A program made the translations under genes and the position numbers. A stretch of DNA of 64,000 nt from the NCBI RefSeq assembly GCF_014904745.1, contig NZ_JACZCS010000035.1, positions 62,001-126,000 of the forward strand, given 5' to 3'. The stretch comes from Oricola nitratireducens (GTDB taxonomy: Bacteria; Pseudomonadota; Alphaproteobacteria; Rhizobiales; Rhizobiaceae). The notes under the pieces were generated by a model. That model saw only the letters and a program-made list of their open reading frames with translations, was not told the origin of the DNA and did not search any database. Shown in pieces: positions 19,979-36,282 of the stretch; the first letter of the stretch is position 1; the number at the start of each line of letters is the position of its first letter.

Positions 19979-19996
19979 GCGTGATCCGGCCAACGC

Positions 19997-20022: not shown

Positions 20023-20036
20023 CTCCGGAGAAGATG

Positions 20037-22097: not shown

Positions 22098-22108
22098 TGG
22101 AGGCCCCC

Positions 22109-22951
22109 ATGGGACAGAAATCTGACATTCTCAAACAGGCTGCCGAGCTTCGAAACGCCGGCGAAGCCTTCGTCCTAGCAACTGTGGTTCGCACGGTCGC
22201 TGCGACGGCGGCGAAGGCGGGCGCCAAGGCGATCATTCGCGCCGACGGCACGATCATGGAGGGCTGGATTGGCGGTGGCTGCGCGCGCGGCGCCGTGCTG
22301 AAAGCAGCCAAGGACGCGATCGCCGACGGACAGGCGCGTTTTGTCTCGGTGCAGCCGGAAGACATGCTTGCCGAACACGGCGTATCGGCCGGCACCGAAA
22401 AGGAAGGCGTGCGGTTTGCGCGCAACATGTGCCCGAGCAAGGGCACGATGGATGTCTTCATCGAGCCGGTGCTGCCATCGCCGGGGATCGTGATCCTCGG
22501 GTCGAGCCCGGTGGCGGTGGCGCTCGCCGACATCGCGCCACGCTTCGGCTACCACGTTACGGTCTGTGCGCCGGGGGATGAGCAGGGGGTGTTTGCCAAC
22601 GCCGATGCGCGTATCGACGGCTTCATGATCGAGACGGCTGAAACCACTGAAAAATATCTCGTCGTCTCGACGCAGGGTCGCGGTGACGAGGCGGCGCTGA
22701 GCGCCGCGCTGTCGGTTCCGTCGGCGCATGTGTCCTTTGTCGGCAGCAAGGCGAAAGCGGCGGCAATCGGAGCCAAGCTGCGTGACAAGGGCGTCGACGC
22801 GGACCGGCTCGCCGCTCTCAAGGCGCCGGCCGGCCTCGATATCGGCGCGATCACGCCGGACGAGATCGCATTGTCGATCCTGACCGAAATTGTGCTGGTC
22901 CGGCGCAGCCGTCAGCGGCAGGCTGCGGCAGAGGCGGGGACAGGTTCATGA
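22109..22951 (+). CDS. coxF: XdhC/CoxF family cofactor-maturation protein
   Basis: This 280-residue protein has the N-terminal XdhC/CoxI domain (VLATVVRTVAATAAKAGAKAI, then GGCARGAV with a conserved cysteine) and a C-terminal Rossmann-like domain (GIVILGSSPVAVALADIAPRFGY, STQGRGDEAALSAAL, SFVGSKAKA). XdhC-type proteins hold and sulfurate the molybdenum cofactor before insertion. The ATG at 22109 has GGAGG 5 bases upstream; an ATG at 22097 overlapping the coxE stop (TGATG) is the alternative. Its stop overlaps a tiny open frame, then coxG. Confidence 0.93.
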   Translation: MGQKSDILKQAAELRNAGEAFVLATVVRTVAATAAKAGAKAIIRADGTIMEGWIGGGCARGAVLKAAKDAIADGQARFVSVQPEDMLAEHGVSAGTEKEGVRFARNMCPSKGTMDVFIEPVLPSPGIVILGSSPVAVALADIAPRFGYHVTVCAPGDEQGVFANADARIDGFMIETAETTEKYLVVSTQGRGDEAALSAALSVPSAHVSFVGSKAKAAAIGAKLRDKGVDADRLAALKAPAGLDIGAITPDEIALSILTEIVLVRRSRQRQAAAEAGTGS

Positions 22952-23088
22952 CCGACATGGTCCGGCGTCTGCGGGCGTTACTCGTAATCCTTTTCGCGCC
23001 TTCGCCCGGCGTCATGCAGACTCCCGAAAACGAAACAGAAAAACTGGCAGTCGAGGCGATGCTGAACGGCCGATCCTGCTGCGGATGA
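22948..23088 (+). CDS. Possible small protein between coxF and coxG
   Basis: An ATG overlaps the coxF stop (ATGA at 22948-22951) and opens a 46-codon frame ending 13 bases before coxG. The product starts MTDMVRRLRALLVILF, basic then hydrophobic like a signal anchor, and ends RSCCG with two cysteines. Coupling to coxF and the exact fit in the gap favour a real small gene, but there is no family support and no separate ribosome site. It could equally be untranslated leader. Confidence 0.35.
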   Translation: MTDMVRRLRALLVILFAPSPGVMQTPENETEKLAVEAMLNGRSCCG

Positions 23089-23101
23089 AAGAGGACAATC
23101 C

Positions 23102-23548
23102 ATGGAAATGAAAGACGAAATCCGGATCGAAGCTCCGCGGGCGCGCGTCTACGATGCGCTCAACGATCCGGATATCCTGAAGCAAAGCATTCCCGGCTGC
23201 GAAGAGCTGATCAAGCATTCCGACACCGAACTGGAAGCGAAGGTGACGCTGAAAATCGGCCCGGTGAAGGCGAAATTCGGCGGCAATGTGACGCTCGACA
23301 AGTCTAATGCGCCGGACCGGTTCTCGCTGACCGGGGAGGGCAGCGGCGGGGTTGCCGGGTTCGCCAAGGGCGGAGCCGATGTCGAATTGGAGGAGGACGG
23401 CGACGCAACGATCCTGCGCTACACGGCGAAAGCCGATGTCGGCGGCAAGATCGCCCAGCTCGGTAGCCGGCTGATCAGCTCGACGGCGAACCGTCTGGCT
23501 GGGCAGTTCTTCAACAAGTTCAAGGAAACGGTCGAAGCGGCTAACTGA
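23102..23548 (+). CDS. coxG: CoxG family SRPBCC protein
   Basis: This 148-residue protein has the SRPBCC/CoxG fold: IEAPRARVYDALNDPDILKQSIPGCEEL at the N-terminus, then alternating strands and the TGEGSGGVAGFAKG glycine-rich stretch, ending in a helix ISSTANRLAGQFFNKFKETVEA. CoxG helps dock CO dehydrogenase to the cytoplasmic membrane and quinone pool. As I recall, the Oligotropha protein is about 200 residues with a C-terminal hydrophobic anchor. Here the anchor is absent, so docking may depend on another protein. It is the last cox gene and converges with the carnitine operon. Confidence 0.93.
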   Translation: MEMKDEIRIEAPRARVYDALNDPDILKQSIPGCEELIKHSDTELEAKVTLKIGPVKAKFGGNVTLDKSNAPDRFSLTGEGSGGVAGFAKGGADVELEEDGDATILRYTAKADVGGKIAQLGSRLISSTANRLAGQFFNKFKETVEAAN

Positions 23549-23557: not shown

Positions 23558-24343
23558 TCAGCGGCCTTTCCAGACCGGTTCGCGTTTCTCGGCAAAGGCG
23601 CGAAAGCCTTCCAGATTGTCATCGGAATCGTAGAGTTCGTCGACGGTCGGGAACTTGCGCTTGGTGATCCAGTTCATCGCCTCCTGGAAATTCATCGCCT
23701 CGGCCTCGCGCGCGACCTCCTTGATCGCGGCGAAGACGAGCGGCGGCCCGCTTTCGAGCAGCCGGGCGATCTTCCAGACGCGGTCGGTCAGGGCATCGTT
23801 GTCCGGCAGGATCTCGTTGACGAGGCCCCAGCGGTGGGCTTCCTCGGCGTCCATCCAGCGGCCGGTGAACAGCAGGTCCATGGCGACATGGTAGGGAATG
23901 CGCTTCGGCAGTTTGACGGTGGCTGCGTCGGCAAGCGTCCCGGCGCGGATCTCTGGCAGCGCGAAGGAGGACTGCGCCGAGGCAAAGATGAGGTCGCAAG
24001 ACAATGCGAGTTCGAAACCGCCGCCGACCGCCATGCCGTTGACGCAGGCGATCACCGGCTTGTTCATGCCGCGCAGTTCCTGAATGCCGCCGAAACCGCC
24101 GACGCCGTAATCGCCGTCGACGGCGTCACCATTGGCGGCCGCCTTGAGATCCCATCCGGCGGAAAAGAACTTGTCGCCCGCCGTCCGGACGATGGCGACG
24201 CGCAGATCGGGATCGTCGCGAAAGGCCTTGAACGTCTCGCCCATCAGGCGCGACGTGGCGAGATCGATGGCGTTCGCCTTCGGGCGGTCGAGTGTCACCT
24301 CGAGGATGGCGCCTTCGCGGCGGGTGCGCACGACGTCGTTCAT
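23558..24343 (-). CDS. caiD: Enoyl-CoA hydratase family, carnitinyl-CoA dehydratase-like
   Basis: This 261-residue crotonase-fold protein has the oxyanion-hole segments DKFFSAGWDLKAA and CVNGMAVGGGFELALSCDL, a catalytic-type glutamate in LPEIRAG, and a tryptophan-rich C-terminal region resembling CaiD. CaiD hydrates crotonobetainyl-CoA to carnitinyl-CoA. It is the last gene of a leftward operon containing an acyl-CoA synthetase, an acyl-CoA dehydrogenase, a carnitine dehydrogenase and a BKACE enzyme, which strongly favours a trimethylammonium-acyl-CoA substrate. Its start overlaps the preceding stop by 4 bases. Confidence 0.88.
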   Translation of the reverse strand: MNDVVRTRREGAILEVTLDRPKANAIDLATSRLMGETFKAFRDDPDLRVAIVRTAGDKFFSAGWDLKAAANGDAVDGDYGVGGFGGIQELRGMNKPVIACVNGMAVGGGFELALSCDLIFASAQSSFALPEIRAGTLADAATVKLPKRIPYHVAMDLLFTGRWMDAEEAHRWGLVNEILPDNDALTDRVWKIARLLESGPPLVFAAIKEVAREAEAMNFQEAMNWITKRKFPTVDELYDSDDNLEGFRAFAEKREPVWKGR

Positions 24344-26409
24344 TGCGGGTCCTCCTGTAGCACGATCAGGGCGTCGGCGATTGCCGCCCCCTTGCCGATC
24401 TCGCAGACGATCAGCGGATTGATATCCATTTCGACGAGTTTGCCGGCGTTTTCGACCGCAAAGCGGGCGATGGCCTCAATGGCGTCGATGGCGGCTTCGA
24501 TATCGGCCTTCGGCCGGCCGCGATAACCGTCGAGCAGCGGAAATAGTTTCAGCGCGCGGATCGCTGTTTCGATCTCGTCACGCGTGGCGGGCAACAGCAG
24601 GGTGCGACTGTCTTCGAGCAATTCGACGAGGATGCCTCCGCTACCGACCGTCACAATCGGACCGAATAGTGGGTCGCGCGTGACGCCGACGATCAGCTCG
24701 GCGACGCCGCCCTCGACCATGCGCTCGACAAAGAGACCGGTTCCGATCGGGGCGAGGGCGTCCGCCGCTTCGCGGACGGATTCGGCGTCGCGAAGACCGA
24801 GGCGGACCGCGCCGCGCTCCGACTTGTGGGCAATGCCAAGCGCCTTCAGGGCGACGGGATATCCAAGAGCATCGGCGGCCGCTACGGCTTCGGCGGCGGT
24901 GGCGGCGCGGCATCCTTGGGGAACCGGCAGGCCGGAAACTGCCAGCCGCGCCTTGGCCTCGGCTTCGTCGAGTGTGTGCGTCTTGCCGCCTTCTCCCGCT
25001 TTAGCGGCGACCGCGGCGGGGAAGGGCCGTTTCCATGCCGCGCCAATGGCAGCGGCGGCCTCGGCCGCATCGAACGCCTCGTCGATGCCCTGCATCGGCG
25101 CGATGCCGCGCGCCATGATGTCGGCTGCCCAGTTCTCGGAGAGGTTTTCCGGCAGCGAAGCGAGGATAGCGCCCTTCGCGCCGTTCGCCTTCAATGCCGT
25201 CTCGAAGGCGGAGACGGTCGCGCGCCAGTCGGCATCGGAACATCGGTCGGCGCGCGGGAAATCGAGGACAAGGAAATTAAGGTCGAAGCCGCCGGAAACC
25301 ATGGCCGAGAACGTGGCCGTCATGGCCGGCGCGTCGTTCCAGATGAAGGTGTGATAGTCAAGCGGGTTGGCGACGGCGACCAGCGGTCCGAGCGTTTGCC
25401 TGATGGCAGTCCTGTGGTCCGGAAAAAGCGGCCGGAAGGTGACGCGCCGGCCTGCGGCGCTGTCGGCCATGATCGATGCCTCGCCGCCGGAACAACTCAT
25501 CGAGGCGATGTCTCTGCCGTCGAGCGGGCCGGTGACATGCAGCAGCTTCAGTACTTCCATGAAGGCGGGGATCGAGGCAACGCGGCCGATGCCGAGGCGG
25601 GCGAGGAAGGCGTCGGAGGCGGCGTCCGCGCCGGCCAGAGACGCGGTGTGGGAGACGGTCGCGGCGCGCGCCTGTTCGGATTTTCCGAGTTTCATCGCGA
25701 CGATCGGCTTCTTCAATTCGCGTGCGTGTTTCGCCAAGCGCTCGAAACCGGCGACGCTGTCGAAGCCCTCGATATGCAGGCCGAGGACGGACACCCGCTC
25801 GTCCTCGATCAGGCCGATGGCGATCTCGGAGAGACCTGTCTGCGCCTGGTTGCCGGCAGTCACGACATAGGAAAGCGGAAGACCGCGCGCCTGCATCGTC
25901 ATGTTGATGGCGATGTTGGAGGACTGCGTGACAATGGCCGCGCCGCGCGCGCTTTCGGGGAGACGCATGCCACCATGCTGGTCCGGCCACAACAGGGCGC
26001 CGTCGCAATAGTTGATCAGGCCATAGCAGTTCGGACCGAGGATCGGCATGTTTCCGGCGGCGGCGACCAGTTCCTCCTGCAGGCGTTCGCCGTCGGCGTC
26101 GTCGGCGCCGGCCTCGCGAAAGCCGGAGGCGAAGCAGACCGCGCCGCCCGCGCCGCGTTCTGAAAGCTCGCGCACGAGGTGAACGGAGGCGTTGCGATTG
26201 ACGCCGATGAAGACGGCGTCGGGCGCGGAGGGAAGATCGGCTGCGCAGCGGTATGCAGGCAGGCCCTCGATGGTCTCCTTTTCCGGATGAACCGGCCATA
26301 TTTCGCCGGCAAAGCCCATGCGCTGCGTCTGGCGGATGACCGCCGCGGCCCAGCCGCCGCCGAAGACGGCGACGGATTTCGGCCTGAGCAGGCGTTCCAG
26401 CGAGCGCAT
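24340..26409 (-). CDS. Acyl-CoA synthetase (ADP-forming), probably for betaine-type acids
   Basis: This 689-residue protein joins the alpha and beta parts of an ADP-forming (succinyl-CoA-synthetase-like) acid-CoA ligase. The N-terminal CoA-binding domain starts LRPKSVAVFGGGWAA, followed by the ligase domain with GPNCYGL and the phosphohistidine region ATVSHTASLAGADAA; an ATP-grasp domain occupies about 470-689 (KALGIAHKSERGAVRLGL, GSGGILVELLEDS, EMDINPLIV). In this operon it is the only CoA ligase and so is the likely activator of gamma-butyrobetaine or carnitine, replacing AMP-forming CaiC. It overlaps both neighbours by 1-4 bases. Confidence 0.85.
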   Translation of the reverse strand: MRSLERLLRPKSVAVFGGGWAAAVIRQTQRMGFAGEIWPVHPEKETIEGLPAYRCAADLPSAPDAVFIGVNRNASVHLVRELSERGAGGAVCFASGFREAGADDADGERLQEELVAAAGNMPILGPNCYGLINYCDGALLWPDQHGGMRLPESARGAAIVTQSSNIAINMTMQARGLPLSYVVTAGNQAQTGLSEIAIGLIEDERVSVLGLHIEGFDSVAGFERLAKHARELKKPIVAMKLGKSEQARAATVSHTASLAGADAASDAFLARLGIGRVASIPAFMEVLKLLHVTGPLDGRDIASMSCSGGEASIMADSAAGRRVTFRPLFPDHRTAIRQTLGPLVAVANPLDYHTFIWNDAPAMTATFSAMVSGGFDLNFLVLDFPRADRCSDADWRATVSAFETALKANGAKGAILASLPENLSENWAADIMARGIAPMQGIDEAFDAAEAAAAIGAAWKRPFPAAVAAKAGEGGKTHTLDEAEAKARLAVSGLPVPQGCRAATAAEAVAAADALGYPVALKALGIAHKSERGAVRLGLRDAESVREAADALAPIGTGLFVERMVEGGVAELIVGVTRDPLFGPIVTVGSGGILVELLEDSRTLLLPATRDEIETAIRALKLFPLLDGYRGRPKADIEAAIDAIEAIARFAVENAGKLVEMDINPLIVCEIGKGAAIADALIVLQEDPQ

Positions 26410-27572
26410 CAGGCGCCGAGCGGCCGCAGCAGCGCGCGCGAGATGATGTGGCGCTGGATTTCGGACGTTCCCTCCCAGATGCGCTCGATGCGCGCGTCGC
26501 GCCAGATGCGCTCAAGCGGCAGTTCGTCCATCAGGCCCATGCCGCCATGGATCTGGATCGCCTCGTCGGCGACCATGGCGAGCATCTCGGTCGCCTTGAG
26601 TTTCGCCATCGCCATGTCGGCGTCGGTGACGGTTCCCTGGTCGACCTTCCAGCCGGCTTCGAGGATCATCAGTTCGGCGGCCTTCATCTCGACGGCCATG
26701 TCGGCGAGCTTGAAGGAGACGCCCTGGAATTTGCCGATCGGCTGGCCGAACTGCTGGCGGCCGGCGGCATAATCGACGGCGTGGGCAAAGGCGCGTTCGG
26801 CGCGGCCGAGGCATGTCGCGCCGACCTGCAGGCGGGTCGCGCCGAGCCAGTCGTTGGCGACCTCGAAGCCCTTGTGCACTTCGCCGAGCACGGCGCTTGC
26901 GGGCAGGCGGCAATTGTCGAATTCGAGGATCGCGTTGGTGTAGCCGCGATGCGAGACGTTGCGGTAGCCGTCGCGCACGGCAAAGCCCGGGTGGCCCTTG
27001 TCGACGAAGAAGGCGGTGATGAGCTTCTTCTTGCCGCGCGGCGTATCTTCCTCGCCGGTCGCCATGAAGGTGATGGTGAAATCAGCGATGTCGGCGTGGC
27101 TGATGAAGTGCTTGGTACCGTTGAGCACCCAATCGTCGCCGTCTTTTTTCGCGGTCGCCTTCATGCCGCGGAGGTCGGAGCCTGCGCCGGGCTCGGTCAT
27201 TGCGAGGCAGTCCCATTTCTCGCCACGCACGCAGGGCAGGAGATATTTCTCGCGCTGTTCGGGCGTGCCGGCGCACAGGATGTTGGAGGGGCGCGCGACA
27301 CAGGTCCAGTGTAACGCGTAATTGGCGCGCCCGAGTTCCTTCTCGTAGAGTAGCCATGTCGGCGTATCGAGACCGGCGCCGCCGAACTCTTCCGGAATAT
27401 TGGCGGCATAGAGGCCGGCTTCGATGGCCTTTTTCTGCAATTCGCGAACGAGGTCCATGTCGAGATGTCCCGTCCGCTCGATTTCCGCCTCGTGCGGATA
27501 GAGTTCGTTCTCGACGAAGGCGCGCGTGGTCTGCGCGATGAGTGTCTGTTCCTCGGATAGGCCGAAATCCAT
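26409..27572 (-). CDS. Acyl-CoA dehydrogenase, probably gamma-butyrobetainyl-CoA dehydrogenase
   Basis: This 387-residue flavoprotein has the acyl-CoA dehydrogenase layout: N-terminal helices (MDFGLSEEQTLIAQTTRAFVENELYPHE), the flavin-binding CLAMTEPGAGSDL, the beta domain HFISHADIADFTI, and the C-terminal helical domain with the RxxFGQPIGKFQ and IHGGMGLMDELPLERIWRDAR segments. It would oxidise an acyl-CoA to the 2,3-enoyl-CoA, passing electrons to ETF. Between the CoA ligase and the hydratase it fits conversion of gamma-butyrobetainyl-CoA to crotonobetainyl-CoA (inference). Its stop overlaps the ligase start. Confidence 0.9.
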   Translation of the reverse strand: MDFGLSEEQTLIAQTTRAFVENELYPHEAEIERTGHLDMDLVRELQKKAIEAGLYAANIPEEFGGAGLDTPTWLLYEKELGRANYALHWTCVARPSNILCAGTPEQREKYLLPCVRGEKWDCLAMTEPGAGSDLRGMKATAKKDGDDWVLNGTKHFISHADIADFTITFMATGEEDTPRGKKKLITAFFVDKGHPGFAVRDGYRNVSHRGYTNAILEFDNCRLPASAVLGEVHKGFEVANDWLGATRLQVGATCLGRAERAFAHAVDYAAGRQQFGQPIGKFQGVSFKLADMAVEMKAAELMILEAGWKVDQGTVTDADMAMAKLKATEMLAMVADEAIQIHGGMGLMDELPLERIWRDARIERIWEGTSEIQRHIISRALLRPLGA

Positions 27573-27577: not shown

Positions 27578-29005
27578 TTACCTCATGCTTTCCGGTTGTG
27601 GCAGCTTGGCCTGCGCCTCGCCGAGCGCATCGATTTTCGCCAGGACATGCGGCGCCGGATCGCAGGAGCGCCGCGTTTCCAGGCTGACATGGATCAGGAG
27701 CTGGTTGCAGGTCGCGAGCAGTTCGCCGTCGGCGCGCAGCATCTCGTGATACATGCGCAGCTTCTTGCCTTTCGCCTCCAGCACCTGCGTGCGAACGCGG
27801 ATCTCGTCGCCGGCCACGGATTCCGCGAGATAGCGGATGTGGTTGTCGACGGTGAAGTAGGACATGCCGCCGTCGATATATTCCGCGTCCGCGCCGACCA
27901 TTGCCATCACGACATCGCCGGCGTCGGAGAAGACCTGGCCGTAGCGGCTTTCGTTCATGTGGCCGTTATAGTCGGTCCAGTCGATCGGAATGACGCGATG
28001 CAGCGTCTGCAGCGGTTGCGTGATGTCGGAGGGCAGGGGCGGCTTGATCCGCTCGTCATGATCCGCGAGGAGCGCGCCGGCGCCCCAGTTCCGCGCCTTC
28101 AGGGCGCGCATCATCGAGACGAGGTTGTCGTCGCGAATGCGTTCGAGCTCGCGGATCGAGTGCATGCCCGACTGGGCGTCCGACTGGCCGGCGATGGTGT
28201 CGATCAGCTCGTCGGTCAGTTCGGGCACGTCCATCAGCTTGGTCCACGGCCATTCGAGGCAAGGACCGAACTGGGCGATGAAGTGTTTCATGCCGGCTTC
28301 GCCGCCGGCGATCCGATAGGTCTCGAACAGGCCCATCTGCGCCCAGCGCAGGCCGAAACCGAAGCGGATCGCGTCGTCGATCTCTTCCGTGGTCGCGATG
28401 CCGTCCTTCACCAGCCACAGAGCCTCGCGCCAGACCGCCTCGAGAAACCGGTCGGCGATATGGGCGTCGATCTCCTTGCGGACGATCAGCGGCTTCATGC
28501 CCATAGCGTCGAGAACGGCCTTCGCGCGCTCGACAGTATCCGGCGCTCCGACAAGCTCGACCAGCGGCAGGAGATAGACCGGGTTGAAGGGGTGCGCGAC
28601 GAAGATCTGGTTGGGCTTCTTCACGCACTGCTGCAGTTCTGAAGGCTTGAAGCCGGAGGTCGAGGAGCCGATCAACGCATCCGGCGGGCAATGTTCCTGG
28701 ATTTCGGCGAAGACCTTGTGCTTGAGGTCGAGCCGCTCGGGCACGCTTTCCTGAATCCAGCCGGCATCCTGCACGGCGTCCTTGATCGAGGACGCAAAGT
28801 GCAGGTTTCCTTCCTGCGGGACCGTGCAGTCCGACAGGGCGGGCAGCGAGCGGCGCGCATTGGCGAGCACTTCGCCGATCTTGCGCTCGGCGTCGGGATC
28901 GGGATCGGAGATGACGACATCCCAGCCGTTGAGCAGGAAGCGGGCTGCCCAACCGCCGCCGATCACGCCGCCGCCGATGATGGCCGCTTTTTTTCTGGTC
29001 GTCAT
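27578..29005 (-). CDS. lcdH: Carnitine 3-dehydrogenase fused to betainyl-CoA thioesterase domain
   Basis: This 475-residue bifunctional protein starts with a 3-hydroxyacyl-CoA-dehydrogenase-type domain (about 1-320): the NAD site AIIGGGVIGGGWAARF, GSSTSGFKPSELQ, and AHPFNPVYLLPLVELV with the catalytic histidine. A hotdog thioesterase follows (about 335-475), recognised by IDWTDYNGHMNESRYGQVFSDAGD. Known relatives oxidise L-carnitine to 3-dehydrocarnitine and hydrolyse betainyl-CoA; some species encode them as separate CdhA and CdhB, while others fuse them as here. The start overlaps the HD-protein stop (ATGA). Assignment is strong because the BKACE gene is in the same operon. Confidence 0.9.
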   Translation of the reverse strand: MTTRKKAAIIGGGVIGGGWAARFLLNGWDVVISDPDPDAERKIGEVLANARRSLPALSDCTVPQEGNLHFASSIKDAVQDAGWIQESVPERLDLKHKVFAEIQEHCPPDALIGSSTSGFKPSELQQCVKKPNQIFVAHPFNPVYLLPLVELVGAPDTVERAKAVLDAMGMKPLIVRKEIDAHIADRFLEAVWREALWLVKDGIATTEEIDDAIRFGFGLRWAQMGLFETYRIAGGEAGMKHFIAQFGPCLEWPWTKLMDVPELTDELIDTIAGQSDAQSGMHSIRELERIRDDNLVSMMRALKARNWGAGALLADHDERIKPPLPSDITQPLQTLHRVIPIDWTDYNGHMNESRYGQVFSDAGDVVMAMVGADAEYIDGGMSYFTVDNHIRYLAESVAGDEIRVRTQVLEAKGKKLRMYHEMLRADGELLATCNQLLIHVSLETRRSCDPAPHVLAKIDALGEAQAKLPQPESMR

Positions 29006-29625
29006 TTCCCTGTCCTTTCCGCCGCGCGCTCAGGATCGACAAGCGGCACGCGCTCGCCGGCGCGGATCACCGCCGGGTCATAAGCCTTGCGAGCGAAGAC
29101 CTCGTCGACCATGCCGCGAAAGAACGCGATGCTCTCGTGGTCGTAATGCGGGTCGAAGCTCGACTGGTCCCAGCGTTCGCAGAACTCGGCGCAATCTTCG
29201 AAATAAGGGTGGCCGCGGAATTTTTCGCGCACGTTGCGGTCGCCGCCGAGATGGTGGGCATAGTAAAGGCGCTGGAAATCGCCGTGTTTTTCGATCACCC
29301 AGGTGCATTGCTCGCGTACGTAGGGACGGAGGATCGCGGCCGCGTATTCATCGTGGTTGTAGGGCGCATAGATGTCGCCGATGTCGTGCAGCAGGGCGGA
29401 GACCACCCAGTCAATGTCGGCGCCGTCGCGCCATGCCCGTGTCGCGCTCTGCAACGAATGGCCGAGCCGGGTGACCTGATAGCCGGACAGGCTTTCATCG
29501 AGTGCGACGAGCGCCTGCAGCAGGCGTTCGCCCGTCTTCGCGGCATAGTCGATCTCGTGGGCAGTGAGGAATTCGTAGTCCTCCCTGTCGCCGTCCTTCA
29601 TGGCGGTGAATTTGACTTTTTCCAT
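29002..29625 (-). CDS. HD-domain protein, candidate mixed-valent diiron oxygenase
   Basis: This 207-residue soluble protein has an HD-domain with more metal ligands than a simple phosphohydrolase: H56 (VTRLGHSLQSA), H80-D81 (ALLHDIGD), H91 (NHDEYAA), H114 (EKHGDF) and D153 (RWDQSS), a pattern similar to PhnZ, TmpB and myo-inositol oxygenase. The 24-residue spacing between the first histidine and the HD pair equals that in PhnZ as I recall. TmpB acts on a trimethylammonium compound, which makes an oxygenase role on carnitine, gamma-butyrobetaine or a related quaternary amine plausible. GGAGGGAGG precedes the ATG. Function is unproven; phosphohydrolase activity remains possible. Confidence 0.8.
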   Translation of the reverse strand: MEKVKFTAMKDGDREDYEFLTAHEIDYAAKTGERLLQALVALDESLSGYQVTRLGHSLQSATRAWRDGADIDWVVSALLHDIGDIYAPYNHDEYAAAILRPYVREQCTWVIEKHGDFQRLYYAHHLGGDRNVREKFRGHPYFEDCAEFCERWDQSSFDPHYDHESIAFFRGMVDEVFARKAYDPAVIRAGERVPLVDPERAAERTGK

Positions 29626-29652: not shown

Positions 29653-30564
29653 TTATTTCGGCGCCCGCTTCACGAGCCCGAGCTTTTCGCGCACCTCGGC
29701 GGGGCCGAGCACGCGCGCGCCCATGTTTTCCACGATCGTCACGGCGCGATCGACCAGTTGCGCGTTGGTCGCAAGCACACCCTTGTCGAGCCATAGATTG
29801 TCCTCGAGCCCGACGCGGACATTACCGCCGGCCAGAACCGCCGCGGCGACATAGGCCATCTGGTGGCGGCCAAGCGAGAAGGCCGACCATGTCCAGTTTG
29901 AAGGCACGTTGTTGACCATCGCCATGAAGGTGTTGAGGTCGTTCGGCGCCCCCCAGGGCACGCCCATGCAGAGCTGCACCAGCGCGTCGTCCTTCAGAAT
30001 GCCTTCCGACACGAGTTGCTTGGCGAACCACAAATGACCTGTATCGAACGCCTCGATTTCCGGCTTGACGCCAAGCTCGGTCATCATCGCGCCCATGGCG
30101 CGCAGCATGCCGGGCGTGTTGGTCATCACGTAATCGGCCTCGGCAAAATTCATCGTGCCGCAGTCGAGCGTGCAGATTTCCGGCAGGCATTCGGCGACAT
30201 GGGCGACACGCTCGGCAGCGCCTGCCATGTCCGTACCTCGCTGTTTCAGGGGCAGGGGGCTTTCTGTCGGGCCGAACACCATGTCGCCGCCCATGCCGGC
30301 AGTCAGGTTGAGAACAACGTCGACATCGGCGTCGCGGATGCGTTCGGTCACTTCGCGGTAGAGCGCGATGTCGCGGCGCGGCGCGCCGGTTTCGGGATCG
30401 CGCACATGGCAGTGGACGATGGCCGCACCGGCCTTGGCCGCTTCGATGGCGCTGTCGGCAATTTCGCGCGGCGACCGCGGGACCCGGGGACTGCGGTCCT
30501 GGGTGCCGCCCGAGCCGGTTATGGCGCAGGTGATGAAGACTTCGCGGTTCATGGTGAGCGGCAT
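29653..30564 (-). CDS. BKACE family 3-dehydrocarnitine cleavage enzyme
   Basis: This 303-residue TIM-barrel protein belongs to the beta-keto acid cleavage enzymes (3-keto-5-aminohexanoate cleavage family). The zinc-site histidines appear in IVHCHVRDPETGAP, and other family segments are LNLTAGMGGD, CTLDCGTMNF, PEIEAFDTGHL and VRVGLEDNLWL. In carnitine catabolism the family member (DhcA) converts 3-dehydrocarnitine and acetyl-CoA to betainyl-CoA and acetoacetate. Context with the carnitine dehydrogenase-thioesterase supports that substrate. AGGGAGG lies 6 bases before the ATG. It is the first gene of the leftward operon, divergent from the regulator. Confidence 0.9.
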   Translation of the reverse strand: MPLTMNREVFITCAITGSGGTQDRSPRVPRSPREIADSAIEAAKAGAAIVHCHVRDPETGAPRRDIALYREVTERIRDADVDVVLNLTAGMGGDMVFGPTESPLPLKQRGTDMAGAAERVAHVAECLPEICTLDCGTMNFAEADYVMTNTPGMLRAMGAMMTELGVKPEIEAFDTGHLWFAKQLVSEGILKDDALVQLCMGVPWGAPNDLNTFMAMVNNVPSNWTWSAFSLGRHQMAYVAAAVLAGGNVRVGLEDNLWLDKGVLATNAQLVDRAVTIVENMGARVLGPAEVREKLGLVKRAPK

Positions 30565-30622: not shown

Positions 30623-30644
30623 TCATTTTACGAAAATAAAATGA
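30623..30644. promoter_or_regulatory. Inverted repeat overlapping the carnitine regulator start
   Basis: TCATTTT (30623-30629) and AAAATGA (30638-30644) form perfect 7-bp arms around ACGAAAAT. The right arm contains the regulator's ATG. The 76-base divergent gap is otherwise GC-rich. It is a likely autoregulatory operator, and it replaces any Shine-Dalgarno sequence. Confidence 0.6.
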
Positions 30645-31633
30645 CAGAATACGAACTGCTTTCGGTTCCCGCGGCCGGTGACGCGCCAGTCAAGGTCGAC
30701 ATTCTGGTGTTGCCGGGGTCGTCGATGATGACGCTTGCCTGCGCCGGTGACCCGCTGCGCGCCGCCAACCGGGTCTGCGGGCGGACGGTTTTTGCGTGGC
30801 GCTTTCTGTCGCTCGACGACGACGATCCGCTGACTTCGGCCGGGACGCCGTGGCCGGTGTCGGGCCGTATCGATCCCGGCGAAAAACGGAATGTGCTGGC
30901 CGTCGTCGCGGGGTTCCGGGCGTTCGAAATGCGCGACCGGCGCATGCTTTCGCGGATCGTGCGGGCATCCCAGAATGCCGAGCTGACGATAGGGATCGAA
31001 TCCGGCGCATGGCTGATCGCCCGGGCGGGGCTGCTCGACGGCCGGCGCGCGACGACCCACTGGGAGGATTTCGAGGAATTCGCCACCGCGTTTCCCGCAA
31101 TCGACCTGCGCCCCGACCGTGCCGTCGCTGACGGGCGTTTCATCACGACGGCCGGGGCGTCGCCGACATTCGACATGATGATCGACCTGATCCGCCGATG
31201 CGCCGGGATGGCGGCGGCGCTCGATGTCGCGAGCGCCTTCGTCTACGAGGCCTCGCGTGGCGCAAGCGACGCGCAGGCGCCGGTATCGTTCGGGCCGGCG
31301 GGCAACCACGATCCGCGCGTCATGCAGGCGATCCGCGCGATGGAACTCTGCATCGAAAAGCCGGTGACGATCGCCGCGATCGCGCGGCGCGTTTCCATTT
31401 CGCCGCGCGGGCTGGAACAATTGTTCCGCAAGGAAATCGGCCAGACGCCGGGCGCCTATTTCCTGTCGCTCAGGATCAATGCGGCGCGGCGGCTGGTGCT
31501 CGATACGCGGCTTCCGATGACCGAGATCGCGTCGCGCACCGGTTTTTCCTCGGTCGCGGCGTTTTCGCGCGCTTTCAGGCGGTCCTACGGCATCTCGCCG
31601 ATGCGGAAACGCGCCGAGCGGGAGCCGGCCTGA
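30641..31633 (+). CDS. cdhR: GATase-1-like AraC-family regulator of carnitine catabolism
   Basis: This 330-residue protein has an N-terminal DJ-1/PfpI (class I glutamine-amidotransferase-like) domain at about 10-190 and a C-terminal AraC HTH domain (IAAIARRVSISPRGLEQLFRKEIGQTPG, then IASRTGFSSVAAFSRAFRRSYGISP). The position of the nucleophile elbow reads GIESGAWLIA, without cysteine, as in regulatory GATR proteins. CdhR and GbdR regulators of this architecture respond to carnitine or betaine. It is divergent from the carnitine operon. No Shine-Dalgarno element is visible before the ATG at 30641. Confidence 0.88.
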   Translation: MTEYELLSVPAAGDAPVKVDILVLPGSSMMTLACAGDPLRAANRVCGRTVFAWRFLSLDDDDPLTSAGTPWPVSGRIDPGEKRNVLAVVAGFRAFEMRDRRMLSRIVRASQNAELTIGIESGAWLIARAGLLDGRRATTHWEDFEEFATAFPAIDLRPDRAVADGRFITTAGASPTFDMMIDLIRRCAGMAAALDVASAFVYEASRGASDAQAPVSFGPAGNHDPRVMQAIRAMELCIEKPVTIAAIARRVSISPRGLEQLFRKEIGQTPGAYFLSLRINAARRLVLDTRLPMTEIASRTGFSSVAAFSRAFRRSYGISPMRKRAEREPA

Positions 31634-31695: not shown

Positions 31696-31764
31696 TTGCC
31701 TTCCATGTAGGAAAATCTCGGGTAGCCACGCGAATACCCGCGCGTGCGTTGCAGGGAGGCAGAC

Positions 31765-32841
31765 ATGAAGCTTCGGGTCATCGATTTCGGCGTGGTTTCC
31801 GCACTGCGCAGCCAGGCCGTCTATCACGGCCTCGCCGAAACCATCACCGAGAGCAGCGACCCGGTTCTGTCGCTCGTATCCCCGGAAGAACCCTATGTGT
31901 GCGTCGGCATGCACCAGGAGATCGCCCGGGAAGTGGACGAGGCGTTCTGCACGTCGCGGAACCTGCCGATCTACCGGCGCCACGTTGGCGGCGGCGCTGT
32001 CTATCTCGACCGCAACCAGCTGTTCACGCACTTCATCTATCCGCGCAAGAAGGCGCCGGAATTCGCGATGAATCTCTATCCGATGTTCATCGAGCCGGTG
32101 GTGCGCACCTACAAGCAGCTCGGCGTCAACGCCAATTACCGGCCGGTCAACGATATCCAGGTGAACGGCCGCAAGATCGGCGGCACCGGGGCGGCGAGCA
32201 TCGGCGAGGCGACCGTCATGGTCGGCAGTTTCATGTTCGATTTCGACACCGAGACGATGGCGCGCTGCCTCAAGGTGCCGAGCGAGAAGTTCCGCGACAA
32301 GCTGCGCCAGACGCTGGACGACTACATGACGACGATGGTCAAGGAACTCGCCGAACTGCCGGACCGGGCGCGGCTGAAGAAACTGTTCCTGTCCAATTGC
32401 GGCGACGTTCTCGGCGTCGATCCGGTCGAGACGGAGCCGACGGCGGAGGAATGGGCGGCGATCGAACAGGCGGAGAAGGACCTGACCGATCCCGCATGGA
32501 CCAATCTCCAGGGCCGCAAGCTCGTCGAACTCGGCGTGAAAATCTCGGAAGGCCGGCATCTCACCGAAAGCATGCACAAGGCGCCGGGCGGCCTGATCCG
32601 GGTGCATTTGCTCGGTCTCGACGGAAAAGTCAGCGAGTTGATGATCTCGGGCGACTTCACCTGTCTTCCGCCCGAAGGCGCAGACACGTTGGCGGCCGAT
32701 TTGCACGGCGTCGACCTGTCAGAGGAAGCCCTTGCGGCGGCCGCGGACGCGGCGATGAAAACACATCAGATCGAAATGCCGGGCATCACCGGCGCAGACA
32801 TCGCGACCGCCATCATGGCCGCTGCACATGCGCCGGCCTGA
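31765..32841 (+). CDS. Lipoate-protein ligase of the sHdr type, sLpl(AB)
   Basis: This 358-residue protein belongs to the LplA/LplB/BirA ligase family. Visible motifs are the RRHVGGGAVYLD substrate-binding loop and NDIQVNGRKIGGTGA with the active-site lysine, followed by an accessory C-terminal domain, so it is a full-length ligase. In sulfur oxidisers a ligase of this type, sLpl(AB), attaches octanoate or lipoate specifically to LbpA, whose gene is at 40365. GGGAGG lies 5 bases before the ATG. No lipoyl synthase (LipS1/LipS2 or LipA) is in the window. It probably starts the sulfur transcription unit. Confidence 0.85.
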   Translation: MKLRVIDFGVVSALRSQAVYHGLAETITESSDPVLSLVSPEEPYVCVGMHQEIAREVDEAFCTSRNLPIYRRHVGGGAVYLDRNQLFTHFIYPRKKAPEFAMNLYPMFIEPVVRTYKQLGVNANYRPVNDIQVNGRKIGGTGAASIGEATVMVGSFMFDFDTETMARCLKVPSEKFRDKLRQTLDDYMTTMVKELAELPDRARLKKLFLSNCGDVLGVDPVETEPTAEEWAAIEQAEKDLTDPAWTNLQGRKLVELGVKISEGRHLTESMHKAPGGLIRVHLLGLDGKVSELMISGDFTCLPPEGADTLAADLHGVDLSEEALAAAADAAMKTHQIEMPGITGADIATAIMAAAHAPA

Positions 32842-32868
32842 TCGCGCGGCGGGGAGAAGTATTTCACG

Positions 32869-33558
32869 ATGAAAACCGTTTGCGTCATCCAGCATACGGA
32901 GGCCGAATATCTCGGCCTGATGGAAGATCATTTCGAGGGGCGCAACATCCGCTTTCTCTATAGCCGGCCATTTGCGGCGGGCGGCACGATACCGTCGGAA
33001 ACGATCGGCTTCGACGGGTTGATGCTGCTCGGCGGCGGGCCATATGGCATGGTCAGCGGCCATCTCCTGCCGAGCATGGGCCCCGAGTTGCGCCTGGTGA
33101 AGGCATTCCTCGATGCCGGCCTGCCGGTGATCGGGATCGAACTCGGTGCCCTCATCCTCGCGGCCGCGAGCGGCGGCGGCGCCGATGACGCACCGCTGCG
33201 ATTCGACGTAACGACCGCGAAAGCCGCCGCTCCGGGTCTGCTCGGCGGTCATATGCCTGCCACATTTCCGCTCGCGCTCTATCTGCGCGACCGTCCGGTC
33301 CTGCCCGCCGATGCGGAAATTTTGGCGGCGGACGAGGCGGGTGAACCGCTGGTCTTTTCGGTGCGCGGAAATTGCCTCGGCTTCGTCGGGCATCCCGGCA
33401 TGAAGCGCGGAATGGCCGAGGATCTGATCATGGAGTTCGCGGAAACGCCTGACAACACTGTCGAATCTCTGGAGGCGCTGGGCGCCGTGCAGGGCGAGGT
33501 CGCGGATGTGCTGAGCGAGCTCATGGTCGGCATCAGCCTGCATACCGGGCTGATGTAA
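32869..33558 (+). CDS. Class I glutamine amidotransferase-like protein lacking the catalytic cysteine
   Basis: This 229-residue protein has the class I GATase plan (FDGLMLLGGGPYGM; GLPVIGIELGALILAAA; GFVGHPGM). The nucleophile elbow, normally GxCxGxQ, reads GIELGAL with E91 in place of cysteine, and the usual HPE triad end reads HPGM. Glutaminase activity is therefore unlikely. It lies 27 bases after the lipoate ligase gene and before the dsrE-hdr genes; as I recall, similar GATase-like genes accompany other sHdr clusters. A scaffold or binding role in lipoate or sulfur metabolism is possible, but function is unknown. Confidence 0.8.
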   Translation: MKTVCVIQHTEAEYLGLMEDHFEGRNIRFLYSRPFAAGGTIPSETIGFDGLMLLGGGPYGMVSGHLLPSMGPELRLVKAFLDAGLPVIGIELGALILAAASGGGADDAPLRFDVTTAKAAAPGLLGGHMPATFPLALYLRDRPVLPADAEILAADEAGEPLVFSVRGNCLGFVGHPGMKRGMAEDLIMEFAETPDNTVESLEALGAVQGEVADVLSELMVGISLHTGLM

Positions 33559-33624
33559 ATCGGGATTACACAGTCGCTTGCCGTAAAGTCGGAAAAGCGG
33601 ATTTCCTGTTTGCATATTCCATTT

Positions 33625-33653
33625 TTGACATGTATTGTTTTCCAATTGCGATA
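33625..33653 (+). promoter_or_regulatory. Candidate promoter of the dsrE-hdr operon
   Basis: TTGACA at 33625-33630 is followed after 17 bases by GCGATA at 33648-33653, a weak -10. An ATTCC half site of the sulfur-repressor type lies just upstream at 33616-33620, without a good GAAT partner. The 150-base gap (33559-33708) is AT-richer than its surroundings. Confidence 0.4.
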
Positions 33654-33708
33654 CGGGTGCCAACCGGACCGGGAGAATCCGACCCGTCGCACAATATGGG
33701 AGAGAGCA

Positions 33709-34089
33709 TTGGCGGATAAACTCATTATCGTCATGGTGAATACCGATCCGAGCAATGGTGAAGAGCTCGGAGCGCCGTTTTTTCAGGCGACCGTGGCGGC
33801 TGCCATGGATTATGAAGTCGACGTGATCTGCACGGCGACTGCCGGCAAGCTGATGAAAAAGGGCGTGGCCGAAAAACTGGTCGTAAAGCCCGGCTCGCCT
33901 AAGACCGTTTACGATTTCATCAAGGACGCGCATGACGCGGGGGCGAAGTTCTATTGCTGCTCGCCCAATCTCGACCTGTTCGACATGACCGAAGAAGACC
34001 TCATTCCCGAATGCGAGGGGATCGTCGGCGGCGCGAAGGTCATCGAGGAAATCATGGAAAACGATGACGCCAAGGTGCTGACCTACTAG
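33709..34089 (+). CDS. DsrE-family sulfur transferase, DsrE3C-like
   Basis: This 126-residue cytoplasmic protein has the DsrE fold and a double cysteine at C83-C84 in KFYCCSPNLDLF; I recall the same two positions described for DsrE3C of Hyphomicrobium denitrificans, where they take part in persulfide transfer with TusA. A further cysteine is in PECEGIVGG. Translation starts at TTG (33709) after GGGAGAGA; no ATG fits the family start. It would carry sulfane sulfur between TusA and the sHdr complex. It directly precedes hdrC1, as in other sHdr clusters. Confidence 0.88.
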   Translation: MADKLIIVMVNTDPSNGEELGAPFFQATVAAAMDYEVDVICTATAGKLMKKGVAEKLVVKPGSPKTVYDFIKDAHDAGAKFYCCSPNLDLFDMTEEDLIPECEGIVGGAKVIEEIMENDDAKVLTY

Positions 34090-34126
34090 GCAAACGCACC
34101 GGGGGCATCGGTATCTGGAGGAGAAA

Positions 34127-34867
34127 TTGACCGCCCACGCCCAGATCAGTGATCCGGTTTCCGAGGCACCTGTGGTGTCGCGTGAGGATCTCGAGGAAAT
34201 CTTCGACGATATTCGCAGCCACGCGGTCTATGACCACGAAATTCATGGCTGCCTGAATTGCGGGATCTGCACCGCAACCTGCCCGTCGGCGCATTACTAC
34301 GACTATTCGCCGCGCGAGATCGTCCAGCTTCTGTGGACCGAGAATCTCGAGGGTATCTACGACGCGATGCAGGAAAAGATCTGGGCCTGCGCCCAGTGCT
34401 ACACCTGCGCGGCGCGCTGCCCGTTCGAAAATTCACCGGGCGGGCTGGTCATGATCATGCGCGAGGTTGCGATCAAGCACGGGATGGAGTCGGCCAAGGA
34501 AGTGCTGCGGCCGTTCTCGCGCGTTCTGCTCAAGGTGATCTCGACGGGCAATCAGCTCGCGCCGAACATGATCACCAAGGAAGCCTTCCCCGACTGGGGG
34601 CCGAATGTCAGCCGCATCGACGCGCCGCTGAACATCCTGCGCAAGGCGATCCCGATGCCGACGATGCACACGCTCGACACCGCTTGGGAGGTCAATCTGA
34701 AGACCTCCGTCGAACTTTACACCATCTGGGAAGCCACGGGCGTTCTCGATCAGCTGGAGACGGTCGACGAGAACCTGTTCGATGTCGTTTCCGACGTGAT
34801 GGATGAGAAGCGTGAGGAATGGGAAGAGTGGCTCGAGGACAACGAGGACGAGGATGACGACGACTGA
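34127..34867 (+). CDS. hdrC1: sHdrC1, heterodisulfide-reductase-like iron-sulfur subunit
   Basis: This 246-residue subunit has two [4Fe-4S] motifs: C42, C45, C48, C52 (CLNCGICTATCP) and C88, C91, C94, C98 (CAQCYTCAARCP). The middle and C-terminal parts follow sHdrC1 proteins and end in a long acidic tail (DNEDEDDDD). It transfers electrons within the sHdr complex that oxidises protein-bound sulfane sulfur to sulfite. The start codon is TTG at 34127 with GGAGGAG upstream, the second TTG start in this operon. hdrB1 follows 44 bases later. Confidence 0.93.
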   Translation: MTAHAQISDPVSEAPVVSREDLEEIFDDIRSHAVYDHEIHGCLNCGICTATCPSAHYYDYSPREIVQLLWTENLEGIYDAMQEKIWACAQCYTCAARCPFENSPGGLVMIMREVAIKHGMESAKEVLRPFSRVLLKVISTGNQLAPNMITKEAFPDWGPNVSRIDAPLNILRKAIPMPTMHTLDTAWEVNLKTSVELYTIWEATGVLDQLETVDENLFDVVSDVMDEKREEWEEWLEDNEDEDDDD

Positions 34868-34911
34868 GGCGGGATGTTCCCGCTGCATCATCGACACCGA
34901 AGGAGGAAGTC

Positions 34912-36282
34912 ATGGCTCAAGGAAATGACAGCAATAGCGGCGCATTCAGCGGTTTCGGCGCCGAATGGCAGGCCAGCAACCTGACGCCCGACGAAGCGCG
35001 GCGCGCCACCGACTGGGTCGAGACCAAGATCGACAAGCGCGCGCTCCTGACCAACAAGGAGCGCAAGGAAGACGTCCGCGACATCATGTGGCAGCTGGAA
35101 AAGGAGGGCGAAATCGTCGTCCACCGCGTCGGCGACGTGCATGAGCCGGTGATGGCCAAGACGCTCTATGGCTGGGACAAGAAAATCCCGACCAACAATC
35201 TGTGGCATCACAAGTCCTGCGGCCAGTGCGGCAACATTCCGGGATATCCGAGCTCCGTCCTGTGGCTGATGAACAAGATGGACATCTCGTATCTCGACGA
35301 GACCGACCAGACGTCGTGCACGGCCTGGAACTATCATGGTTCGGGCATCGGCAACGTGGTGTCGCTTGCCGCCGTGTTCCTGCGCAATTTCCACCAGGCC
35401 TATGTGTCGGCGAAATCGCAGGGCCTGCCGGAAGGAACCTACTATCCGCTGGTCCATTGCGGCACGTCCTTCGGCAACTACAAGGAAATCCGCGGCTTCC
35501 TGCTGCATTCGGCGGAATTGCGCGAAGAGGTGAAGAAGATCCTCGGCAAGCTCGGCCGCCTGATCGACGGCAAGCTGCTGATCCCCGAGGAGATCGTGCA
35601 CTATTCGGAGTGGCTGCATGTCATGCGCCACCGGCTGAAGGAGCATCAGGTCGTCGATGTCAGCGGCATCCGCGCGACCGTGCATCCGGCCTGCCACGTC
35701 TACAAGATGGTGCCCGAAGACGTCATCTATGACGACACAGTTCTCGACGGAAACCGCGTTGCGGTGACGACCGGCCTGCTCGACACAATGGGCGCGCAGG
35801 TGATCGACTATTCGACCTGGTACGACTGCTGCGGTTTCGGCTTCCGCCACATCATCGGCGAGCGCGAGTTTACCCGTTCGTTCGCGATCGACCGCAAGAT
35901 CCGCGTCGCGGTGGAAGAAGCACGCTCCGACGTGATGATCGGCCATGATACGGGTTGCATAACGACGCTCGACAAGAACCAGTGGATCGGCAAGGCGGTC
36001 GACAAGGTCTATGCGCTGCCGGTGATGGCGGACTGCCAGTTTGCCGCGCTGGCGCTCGGCGCCCATCCCTACAAGCTCGCCCAGTTGCACTGGCATGCCT
36101 CGCCATTCGAGACGCTGCTCGAGAAGATGGGCATCGACTGGGAGAAGGCGAAAGCCGAATTCGAAAGCTACCTGGACGACGTCAAGGTCGGGAAGATCGA
36201 GACCCTCTACGATCCGAAACGCGCCATCACGTCCGGTCCCGGATATGTCAAACCGAAGGCTCTGGCAGGGGAGGCGAAATGA
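34912..36282 (+). CDS. hdrB1: sHdrB1, CCG-domain subunit
   Basis: This 456-residue protein is the larger HdrB-type subunit. It contains CCG-like cysteine sets: KSCGQCGN (about 103) and SCTAWNYH in the first half, and HPACHVYK, YDCCGFGF and DTGCITTLD in the second, where one cysteine of the usual CxxC is missing. HdrB subunits of methanogens hold two noncubane clusters at the disulfide-reducing site; in sHdr the site is proposed to work on sulfur in the opposite, oxidising direction. AGGAGG precedes the ATG. Its stop overlaps hdrA by ATGA. Confidence 0.93.
   Translation: MAQGNDSNSGAFSGFGAEWQASNLTPDEARRATDWVETKIDKRALLTNKERKEDVRDIMWQLEKEGEIVVHRVGDVHEPVMAKTLYGWDKKIPTNNLWHHKSCGQCGNIPGYPSSVLWLMNKMDISYLDETDQTSCTAWNYHGSGIGNVVSLAAVFLRNFHQAYVSAKSQGLPEGTYYPLVHCGTSFGNYKEIRGFLLHSAELREEVKKILGKLGRLIDGKLLIPEEIVHYSEWLHVMRHRLKEHQVVDVSGIRATVHPACHVYKMVPEDVIYDDTVLDGNRVAVTTGLLDTMGAQVIDYSTWYDCCGFGFRHIIGEREFTRSFAIDRKIRVAVEEARSDVMIGHDTGCITTLDKNQWIGKAVDKVYALPVMADCQFAALALGAHPYKLAQLHWHASPFETLLEKMGIDWEKAKAEFESYLDDVKVGKIETLYDPKRAITSGPGYVKPKALAGEAK

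Follow-up and report, generated by a model that had tools for sequence, protein, structure and literature searches.

A sister family of the HD oxygenases PhnZ and TmpB, represented in a carnitine operon of Oricola nitratireducens, as a candidate group of diiron oxygenases

We analyzed a 64,000-nucleotide stretch of the Oricola nitratireducens genome (contig NZ_JACZCS010000035.1, positions 62,001 to 126,000; hereafter the window, whose own coordinates are used throughout). Its open reading frame (ORF) list contains an ATG-initiated frame at 29002-29625 on the minus strand that encodes a 207-amino acid HD-domain protein, and this gene is the second of a six-gene carnitine operon on the minus strand. 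The genes of the operon, the divergent regulator and the codons of the predicted metal ligands are as follows.

30641..31633, plus strand: DJ-1/PfpI and AraC-type regulator, divergent, nearest GbdR, the choline metabolism regulator (NF052371, 176 bits, under the cut-off of 480)
29653..30564, minus strand: BKACE, which opens the operon and cleaves a beta-keto acid, probably 3-dehydrocarnitine (Pfam BKACE, E 8.6e-101)
29002..29625, minus strand: HD-domain protein, 207 amino acids, placed in a sister family of PhnZ/TmpB (ORF; Pfam HD; AlphaFold2 model; nearest solved folds PhnZ, TmpB, MIOX)
29458..29460, minus strand: codon of H56, first predicted metal ligand (computed from the ORF; invariant in alignments)
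29383..29388, minus strand: codons of H80 and D81, the HD dyad, with D84 at +3 (HDIGD) (computed from the ORF; alignments)
29353..29355, minus strand: codon of H91, predicted metal ligand (computed from the ORF; alignments)
29284..29286, minus strand: codon of H114, predicted ligand (HGDFQ; Q118 where PhnZ/TmpB have Lys) (computed from the ORF; alignments)
29167..29169, minus strand: codon of D153, last predicted ligand (WDQ) (computed from the ORF; alignments)
27578..29005, minus strand: carnitine 3-dehydrogenase fused to a thioesterase domain, 4-nucleotide overlap with the HD gene (NF005716, 764 bits, cut-off 592; 4HBT domains)
26409..27572, minus strand: acyl-CoA dehydrogenase, candidate gamma-butyrobetainyl-CoA dehydrogenase (Pfam; no NCBIfam equivalog over cut-off)
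24340..26409, minus strand: ligase of the ADP-forming acyl-CoA synthetase type (Pfam ATP-grasp_5, Succ_CoA_lig, CoA_binding_2)
23558..24343, minus strand: enoyl-CoA hydratase, nearest crotonobetainyl-CoA hydratase (NF002936, 301 bits, under the cut-off of 500)

The BKACE gene ends 27 nucleotides before the HD gene, the carnitine dehydrogenase gene begins within the last 4 nucleotides of the HD gene, and the genes for the acyl-CoA dehydrogenase, the CoA ligase and the hydratase come next on the same strand, 5 nucleotides apart or overlapping. An initial annotation, made from the sequence alone, had credited the operon with a CoA route for gamma-butyrobetaine. Such a route is likely encoded here, and only likely because its enzymes, which are nearest to or compatible with gamma-butyrobetaine enzymes, pass no equivalog cut-off. 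No phosphonate gene was seen in the operon in Pfam and NCBIfam scans. The listed ORF of the regulator starts at 30368 and its NF052371 match at residue 103 of that ORF; the start given above is the Met chosen before the matched region.

The reading frame of the HD protein and its six candidate metal ligands (H56, H80, D81, H91, H114, D153) are as the initial annotation had them, and residues 51-61 (V51-A61) read VTRLGHSLQSA, in agreement with the VTxLxHxLQSA segment that it had singled out. The six residues are invariant in an alignment of nine sequences (A1) and in one of 36 (A2, the window protein plus related loci found by homology search), and all of them are present in each of 82 remote family members. 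The same annotation had judged this set to fit mixed-valent diiron oxygenases as well as phosphohydrolases. It does point to a two-metal site, but it is not proof of oxygenase chemistry, because the HD hydrolase YqeK also carries the H..HD..H..H..D set, according to a 2020 review (PMC8177086).

Sequence comparisons place the protein near the known HD oxygenases and outside each of their defined families. The Pfam HD model gives 24.1 bits (cut-off 22), and the model of myo-inositol oxygenase (MIOX, PF05153) matches residues 23-93 with 20.9 bits, short of its gathering cut-off of 25. Scores against NCBIfam are 31.7 bits for PhnZ-type TIGR03276 (cut-off 214.6), 25.1 bits for hydroxymethylphosphonate dioxygenase (cut-off 300) and 22.5 bits for the TmpB model NF049941 (cut-off 300). 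We therefore rejected filing the protein as PhnZ, TmpB or MIOX, on account of these scores and of the differing site residues described below. A phmmer search of PDB sequences returned PhnZ (E 4e-5), the Cas10 HD domain (0.003) and TmpB (0.006). A profile of 142 family sequences finds every one of the 18 PhnZ/TmpB references, with E values from 3e-18 to 2e-8. The genome encodes five more HD proteins of the PF01966 type, whose functions were not checked, and to these the profile gives E values of 3.6 or worse; no six-ligand hydrolase was part of this test. The reverse profile, built from PhnZ/TmpB, finds the window protein with E 9e-12 and those five proteins with 0.28 or worse. Within the reference set, six of the seven PhnZ-type proteins scanned pass TIGR03276, with L266 just under the cut-off; 11 TmpB matches pass NF049941, of which 8 remained after removal of near-copies, and three further matches to that model (L273-L275) were left out since no frame passed the motif filter.

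The AlphaFold2 model of the window protein, made with alignment A2, has a mean predicted local distance difference test score (pLDDT) of 91.2 and a predicted template modelling score (pTM) of 0.88. At E<=0.001, Foldseek returned ten PDB chains only, seven of PhnZ and three of TmpB. Z scores from VIA-align were 17.5 for PhnZ (27% identity), 16.2 for TmpB, 11.5 for mouse MIOX and 10.3 for human MIOX, followed by a tRNA-processing enzyme (8.1), YqeK (6.0), the cyanamide hydratase Ddi2 (5.7) and SAMHD1 (5.5). Thus, in comparisons made with the predicted model, the three known HD oxygenases rank ahead of every other listed entry; fold likeness by itself does not establish the function of the protein. 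The "PhnZ/TmpB-like" label of the initial annotation stands as a statement of kinship in fold and profile and falls as an identification with either enzyme, given the model scores and the loss of the substrate-site residues. Grouping with plain phosphohydrolases, the outcome which that annotation regarded as contrary to its proposal, was not seen in the comparisons that could be run, both fold and profiles lying nearer to PhnZ/TmpB.

The family is large. At least 555 relatives were confirmed from 596 pattern-matched stretches of genome contigs. A homologue from another family of the same order is 74% identical (E 5.7e-105), so that the conservation is well above chance, and a 71% identical protein is annotated as "inositol oxygenase family protein". 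The nine-sequence profile (E<=1e-10) has matches in 110 of 385 Alphaproteobacteria genomes and, at the level of the phylum, in 59 of 398; in one of the 110 (G438) the match is weak and partial (E 6.6e-12). Some matched genomes are only 1.2-1.8 Mb in size. Viral contigs yielded a single partial relative, and PHROGs no match. One divergent HD stretch (L016:1-1914, genome G013) lies in one open frame with a protein that by eye is hydantoinase B-like; its match covers only residues 50-194 of the window protein and contains internal stop codons.

In a tree of 158 sequences (of 160, two short ones having been dropped) the 18 PhnZ/TmpB references stand apart from 140 family members with support of 100/100. 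MIOX is present in the fold comparison only and is absent from the tree, since PF05153 had no match in 120 genomes or in any control. The window protein falls in a clade of 12, 11 of which have carnitine genes (100/85). A wider clade of 36 (100/97) contains 13 members linked to PhyH-type hydroxylases, 11 linked to carnitine genes and 12 with neither, and a clade of 66 (93/94), which is not among the starred branches of a tree whose bootstrap had not settled, contains 17 linked to PhyH, 11 to carnitine genes, 8 to TauD-type hydroxylases and 30 to neither.

Substrate-site residues differ between the two sides of this tree. The columns of PhnZ Y24/E27, H62 and K108 hold Y, E, H and K in all 18 references; the window protein has L46/Y49, D84 and Q118 there. 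In PhnZ, K108 takes part in binding the phosphonate; the Gln at this position speaks against a phosphonate substrate. Column 46 is variable within the family and column 49 is mostly Y or F, while D84 is kept in 93% of the 82 remote sequences and at least 95% of the 60 closer ones, and Q118 in 98% and at least 95%, respectively. Y24 and E27, numbered as in PMC8177086, belong to the YxxE substrate loop, which precedes the first His. Two remote, PhyH-linked proteins (L174 and the second HD protein of L171, L171b) retain YxxE alongside R53, D84 and Q118 and are possible intermediates between the family and the PhnZ/TmpB branches. The 60 closer sequences share R104, Y17 and W152, where remote ones mostly have S, W and Y. 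Between the carnitine clade (12 sequences) and the PhyH clade (24 sequences), residues held by at least 80% differ at two positions only, 123 and 132, neither of which is a metal ligand.

In order to identify genes associated with the family, we examined the loci around its members. Among the 80 named loci, which are the best 80 of at least 555 relatives, the order BKACE, HD, carnitine dehydrogenase, acyl-CoA dehydrogenase, CoA ligase is found in 55, one of which (L055) ends before the hydratase. These carnitine-operon loci are mostly from Mesorhizobium, with four from Hoeflea and others from Tabrizicola (L077), a Rhodobacteraceae member (L080) and an unplaced source (L093); since the named loci are themselves mostly Mesorhizobium, 55 of 80 overstates the number of independent cases. 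In 16 of the remaining 25 loci, one of them cut by a contig end, a PhyH gene lies directly upstream of the HD gene. Across 205 loci, 30 of 45 ORFs labelled as 2-oxoglutarate hydroxylases share the strand of the best HD ORF and lie no more than 150 nucleotides upstream of it; no such ORF lies within that distance downstream. For these distances one HD ORF per locus, the best one, served as reference; in L171 a PhyH frame overlaps the downstream side of a second HD gene, and L074, L135 and L153 were counted as distant despite an overlapping hydroxylase, some HD ORFs being extended at the start. Labels come from profiles built in this analysis, which overlook divergent partners; in L241 a weak PhyH match falls slightly short of the cut-off. 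The starred branches force at least nine changes of the PhyH label and at least six of the TauD label, therefore these pairings were gained or lost repeatedly. The layout of a hydroxylase gene followed by an HD gene is that of PhnY-PhnZ and TmpA-TmpB, as described in the 2020 review and in one from 2023 (PMC8177086; PMC10574752).

TauD-type partners resemble TmpA. Nine TauD genes adjoin an HD gene, and the eight of their proteins that were scanned (L151 was left out) are all nearer TmpA (318-423 bits) than gamma-butyrobetaine dioxygenase (236-266 bits); that of L229 passes the TmpA cut-off (422.5 vs 400). Choline/betaine uptake genes are found in three of ten TauD-linked loci (the nine adjacent ones and L153). 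On the Pseudomonas aeruginosa plasmid pF045_1 (L099) the genes are TauD, HD, a choline substrate-binding protein, choline dehydrogenase and aldehyde dehydrogenase. In L136 (33% GC) one strand encodes a substrate-binding protein, a ProW/ChoW-type permease, Cons_hypoth698, a GcvT-type protein, an MFS protein, TauD and HD, with a choline-dehydrogenase-like gene nearby. L229 has TauD, HD and a choline substrate-binding protein, with a regulator, BKACE and carnitine dehydrogenase on the opposite strand. Another locus, L158 (29% GC, 1.6 Mb genome), has no TauD link and holds HD, an opposite-strand ORF that is thioesterase-like by eye, BKACE and a protein of the L-carnitine dehydrogenase type (344 bits, under the cut-off of 414). 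The association with carnitine genes noticed in the initial annotation thus recurs elsewhere: because L158 and L229 fall outside the clade of the window protein, the carnitine link is found at three separate places in the tree.

Other neighbors were seen as well. Eight remote HD genes of the tree (L101, L178, L182, L190, L199, L206, L234, L238) have a same-strand class II aldolase gene at most a few hundred nucleotides away; this pair may belong to a separate pathway. A 74% identical HD protein in genome G059 (L249) is encoded directly after a glutamine synthetase-type gene, outside a carnitine operon.

Set against characterized systems, the window protein shares most with PhnZ ((R)-2-amino-1-hydroxyethylphosphonate oxygenase, PDB 4mlm/4n71), its closest solved structure: the HD fold, six diiron ligands, the H-x-LQ motif and, in many relatives, a position downstream of an Fe/2-oxoglutarate hydroxylase. 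Unlike PhnZ, it lacks YxxE and the Lys at the K108 position, has HDxGD instead of HDxGH and an additional R53, and is encoded in an operon with no phosphonate gene. TmpB ((R)-1-hydroxy-2-trimethylaminoethylphosphonate oxygenase, PDB 6npa) has in common with it the fold, the ligands, a trimethylammonium context and, in some relatives, a TmpA-like partner; yet the score is far under the cut-off, the two lie on opposite sides of the 100/100 split, and seven of 11 TmpB genomes also carry a family member. With MIOX (PDB 2huo/2ibn) the likeness consists of the fold, a weak sequence match and C-C cleavage, the last as proposed here; the window protein is below the cut-off, shorter, and has HDxGD, D84 standing where MIOX has Lys. 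HD phosphohydrolases (YqeK, SAMHD1, HD-GYP, YfbR) share the HD dyad, an Arg before the first His and, in YqeK, the six ligands, but their fold scores are lower (6.0 for YqeK, 5.5 for SAMHD1), and the family relatives have 2-oxoglutarate hydroxylases as partners.

We tentatively read the window protein as a member of a separate branch of HD diiron oxygenases that would cleave a C-C bond in a hydroxylated trimethylammonium acid and release glycine betaine, a reading that taken as a whole falls somewhat short of an even chance. Oxygenase chemistry taken alone is probable, a trimethylammonium substrate somewhat less so though still favored, and carnitine itself a rather doubtful substrate. The family position, the conserved ligands, the predicted fold, the operon and the repeated hydroxylase pairing of relatives are observations; iron, O2, C-C cleavage and the substrate we infer. 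A mixed-valent Fe(II)/Fe(III) pair would probably sit on H56, H80, D81, H91, H114 and D153, and a hydroxylated trimethylammonium carboxylate would bind through its hydroxyl. O2 would serve to take the carbinol C-H, after which the adjacent C-C bond would be cut and glycine betaine released, in parallel to C-P cleavage by PhnZ/TmpB with the carboxylate side in place of the phosphonate. In relatives, the hydroxyl could be added by the coupled Fe/2-oxoglutarate hydroxylase; in the window operon, the CoA route from gamma-butyrobetaine may supply carnitine instead. Because no hydroxylase is encoded there, the leading candidate reaction in this operon is carnitine + O2 = glycine betaine + glycolate, which balances as a four-electron oxidation, like that of PhnZ. 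An alternative, an alpha-hydroxy betaine acid + O2 = glycine betaine + bicarbonate, balances in the same way. Since the majority residues of the carnitine and PhyH clades differ at two positions only, the same chemistry would be expected in both, and perhaps the same type of substrate, a hydroxylated acid supplied in the one case by the carnitine operon and in the other as the product of PhyH.

Several observations weigh against this reading. The strongest point that the sequence offers against an oxygenase is R53, at -3 of H56 (RxxH), which is present in 90% of the 82 remote sequences and at least 95% of the 60 close ones, and in none of the 18 PhnZ/TmpB references at that column. R53 may instead hold a carboxylate. 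An Arg ahead of the first metal His is a trait of HD phosphatases, at a distance that is not fixed in the available part of the review (PMC8177086). The YxxE loop is missing (L46, Y49), and the carbon that would be released from carnitine bears no oxygen, unlike in inositol. The ORFs and Pfam matches of the carnitine operon include no hydroxylase, and the genome has no PhyH match at E<=0.001; it does encode, outside the operon, two full TauD proteins of the gamma-butyrobetaine/TmpA type, both under cut-off, and a third, partial match. The labels used give neither type of partner, within 3.5 kb, to 30 of the 66 closer-clade members. Remote members adjoin class II aldolases, acyl-CoA dehydrogenases and other genes, and the wider family is for this reason not tied to quaternary amines. 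Finally, among 61 related genomes, where carnitine dehydrogenase passes its cut-off in 21 and the HD family has members in 10 (12 were matched, G048 and G049 holding PhnZ), the genome of the window is, by contig position, the only one with the HD gene within a carnitine operon. Three genomes of the same genus (G002, G004, G005) have BKACE beside carnitine dehydrogenase and no HD match; the protein is therefore accessory to the carnitine pathway, and we rejected the possibility that it is an obligate enzyme of it. In relatives, the slot between BKACE and carnitine dehydrogenase holds other genes, by eye an acetyltransferase-like frame (L298) and an SDR-like frame (L290).

The oxygenase might still act on phosphorus compounds, cleaving the C-P bond of a hydroxylated trimethylammonium phosphonate or similar compound, with glycine betaine as the product that would explain the nearby betaine genes; TmpA/TmpB do make glycine betaine (PMC10574752). 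The TmpA-like TauD proteins, with L229 over the TmpA cut-off, would suit this, as would the resemblance of PhyH-HD pairs to PhnY-PhnZ and the Y and E of YxxE kept in L171b and L174. The explanation is nevertheless improbable: the Lys at the K108 position, found in 18 of 18 references, is Gln in the window protein, YxxE is lost in it and in close groups, and the carnitine operon lacks a visible phosphonate gene. Moreover, because seven of the 11 genomes with TmpB over cut-off carry a family member too (G082, G214, G484, G488, G502, G547, G643), the two roles probably differ. No more probable is a conventional HD hydrolase with two metals, either a phosphatase or a phosphodiesterase, which might for instance carry out a housekeeping step on nucleotides or CoA-type compounds and owe its place in the operon to chance or to cofactor repair. 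R53 of RxxH, the six-ligand site of YqeK (PMC8177086) and the absence of the gene from many carnitine operons are compatible with it. On the other side stand the Z scores, at most 8.1 for all non-oxygenase entries vs 10 to 17 for the three oxygenases, the absence of any match, by profile, between the family and the other five HD proteins encoded in the genome, and the repeated coupling of relatives to 2-oxoglutarate hydroxylases. In addition, the window protein has HDxGD, whereas HDxGK is common in HD hydrolases.

Two further explanations keep the protein close to carnitine metabolism, and we regard both as very unlikely. A diiron oxygenase could act upstream of gamma-butyrobetaine, for example by cutting 3-hydroxy-trimethyllysine between C2 and C3 into gamma-butyrobetaine, to be used by the CoA route, and a glyoxylate-level fragment. 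This would account for a site beside that route and for pairing with the TauD family, which includes trimethyllysine dioxygenase, and the vicinal cut would be like that of MIOX; however, all ten TauD proteins scanned score lowest, of three models, with that of trimethyllysine dioxygenase, and the carnitine operon has no hydroxylase. Alternatively, the protein may clean up D-carnitine or a carnitine by-product, such as decarboxylated 3-dehydrocarnitine, by oxygenase or other HD chemistry. 3-Dehydrocarnitine is unstable, and both the accessory distribution and the varied genes in the slot between BKACE and carnitine dehydrogenase would fit, but PhyH-linked relatives have no carnitine dehydrogenase in the stretch examined.

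Additional features were noted in the same genome. Adjoining the carnitine operon, the plus strand at 31744-39879 encodes a lipoate-ligase-type protein, a DsrE-like protein, two 4Fe-4S proteins and two cysteine-rich CCG proteins, a run resembling a heterodisulfide-reductase-like (sHdr) sulfur-oxidation cluster. Accessory genes for a molybdoenzyme of the aerobic CO dehydrogenase type lie at 19845-23548; they encode an AAA-type ATPase (by eye), a CoxE-type VWA protein, XdhC/CoxI and CoxG. On another contig (L278:1141-3041, contig C20), a dioxygenase of the gamma-butyrobetaine/TmpA type is followed directly by an ORF that by eye is class II aldolase-like, and a Tistrella plasmid (L102) has a similar TauD and aldolase pair some 4 kb away from its HD gene.

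No paper giving this HD branch a role was found in a search of open-licence literature. Rajakovich et al. (2019) reportedly drew a similarity network of this superfamily, and the branch may already be a cluster there. As far as the available parts of the two reviews go, MIOX, PhnZ and TmpB are the only HD oxygenases listed in 2020 (PMC8177086), and PhnZ variants for other phosphonates are added in 2023 (PMC10574752). The latter also gives estimates of phnZ abundance in surface seawater ranging from below 1% to about 20% of expected genomes, and "PhnZ-like" naming of a sister family could add to this spread. The branch of the window protein is large, widespread, devoid of the phosphonate-type site residues and linked in several places to carnitine, choline and betaine genes. 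It is possible, but unlikely, that the window protein is a diiron oxygenase cleaving carnitine with O2 into glycine betaine and glycolate, without CoA or NAD, and that the PhyH-HD and TmpA-like-HD gene pairs, seen among others in Rhodobacterales and in small-genome alphaproteobacteria, encode pathways of two steps in which a trimethylammonium acid is first hydroxylated and then cut to glycine betaine, a C-C counterpart to PhnY-PhnZ and TmpA-TmpB. If the reading we favor, an oxygenase releasing glycine betaine from a hydroxylated trimethylammonium acid, is true, HD-oxygenase chemistry would extend to C-C cleavage in the breakdown of quaternary amines and would provide an O2-dependent route to glycine betaine.

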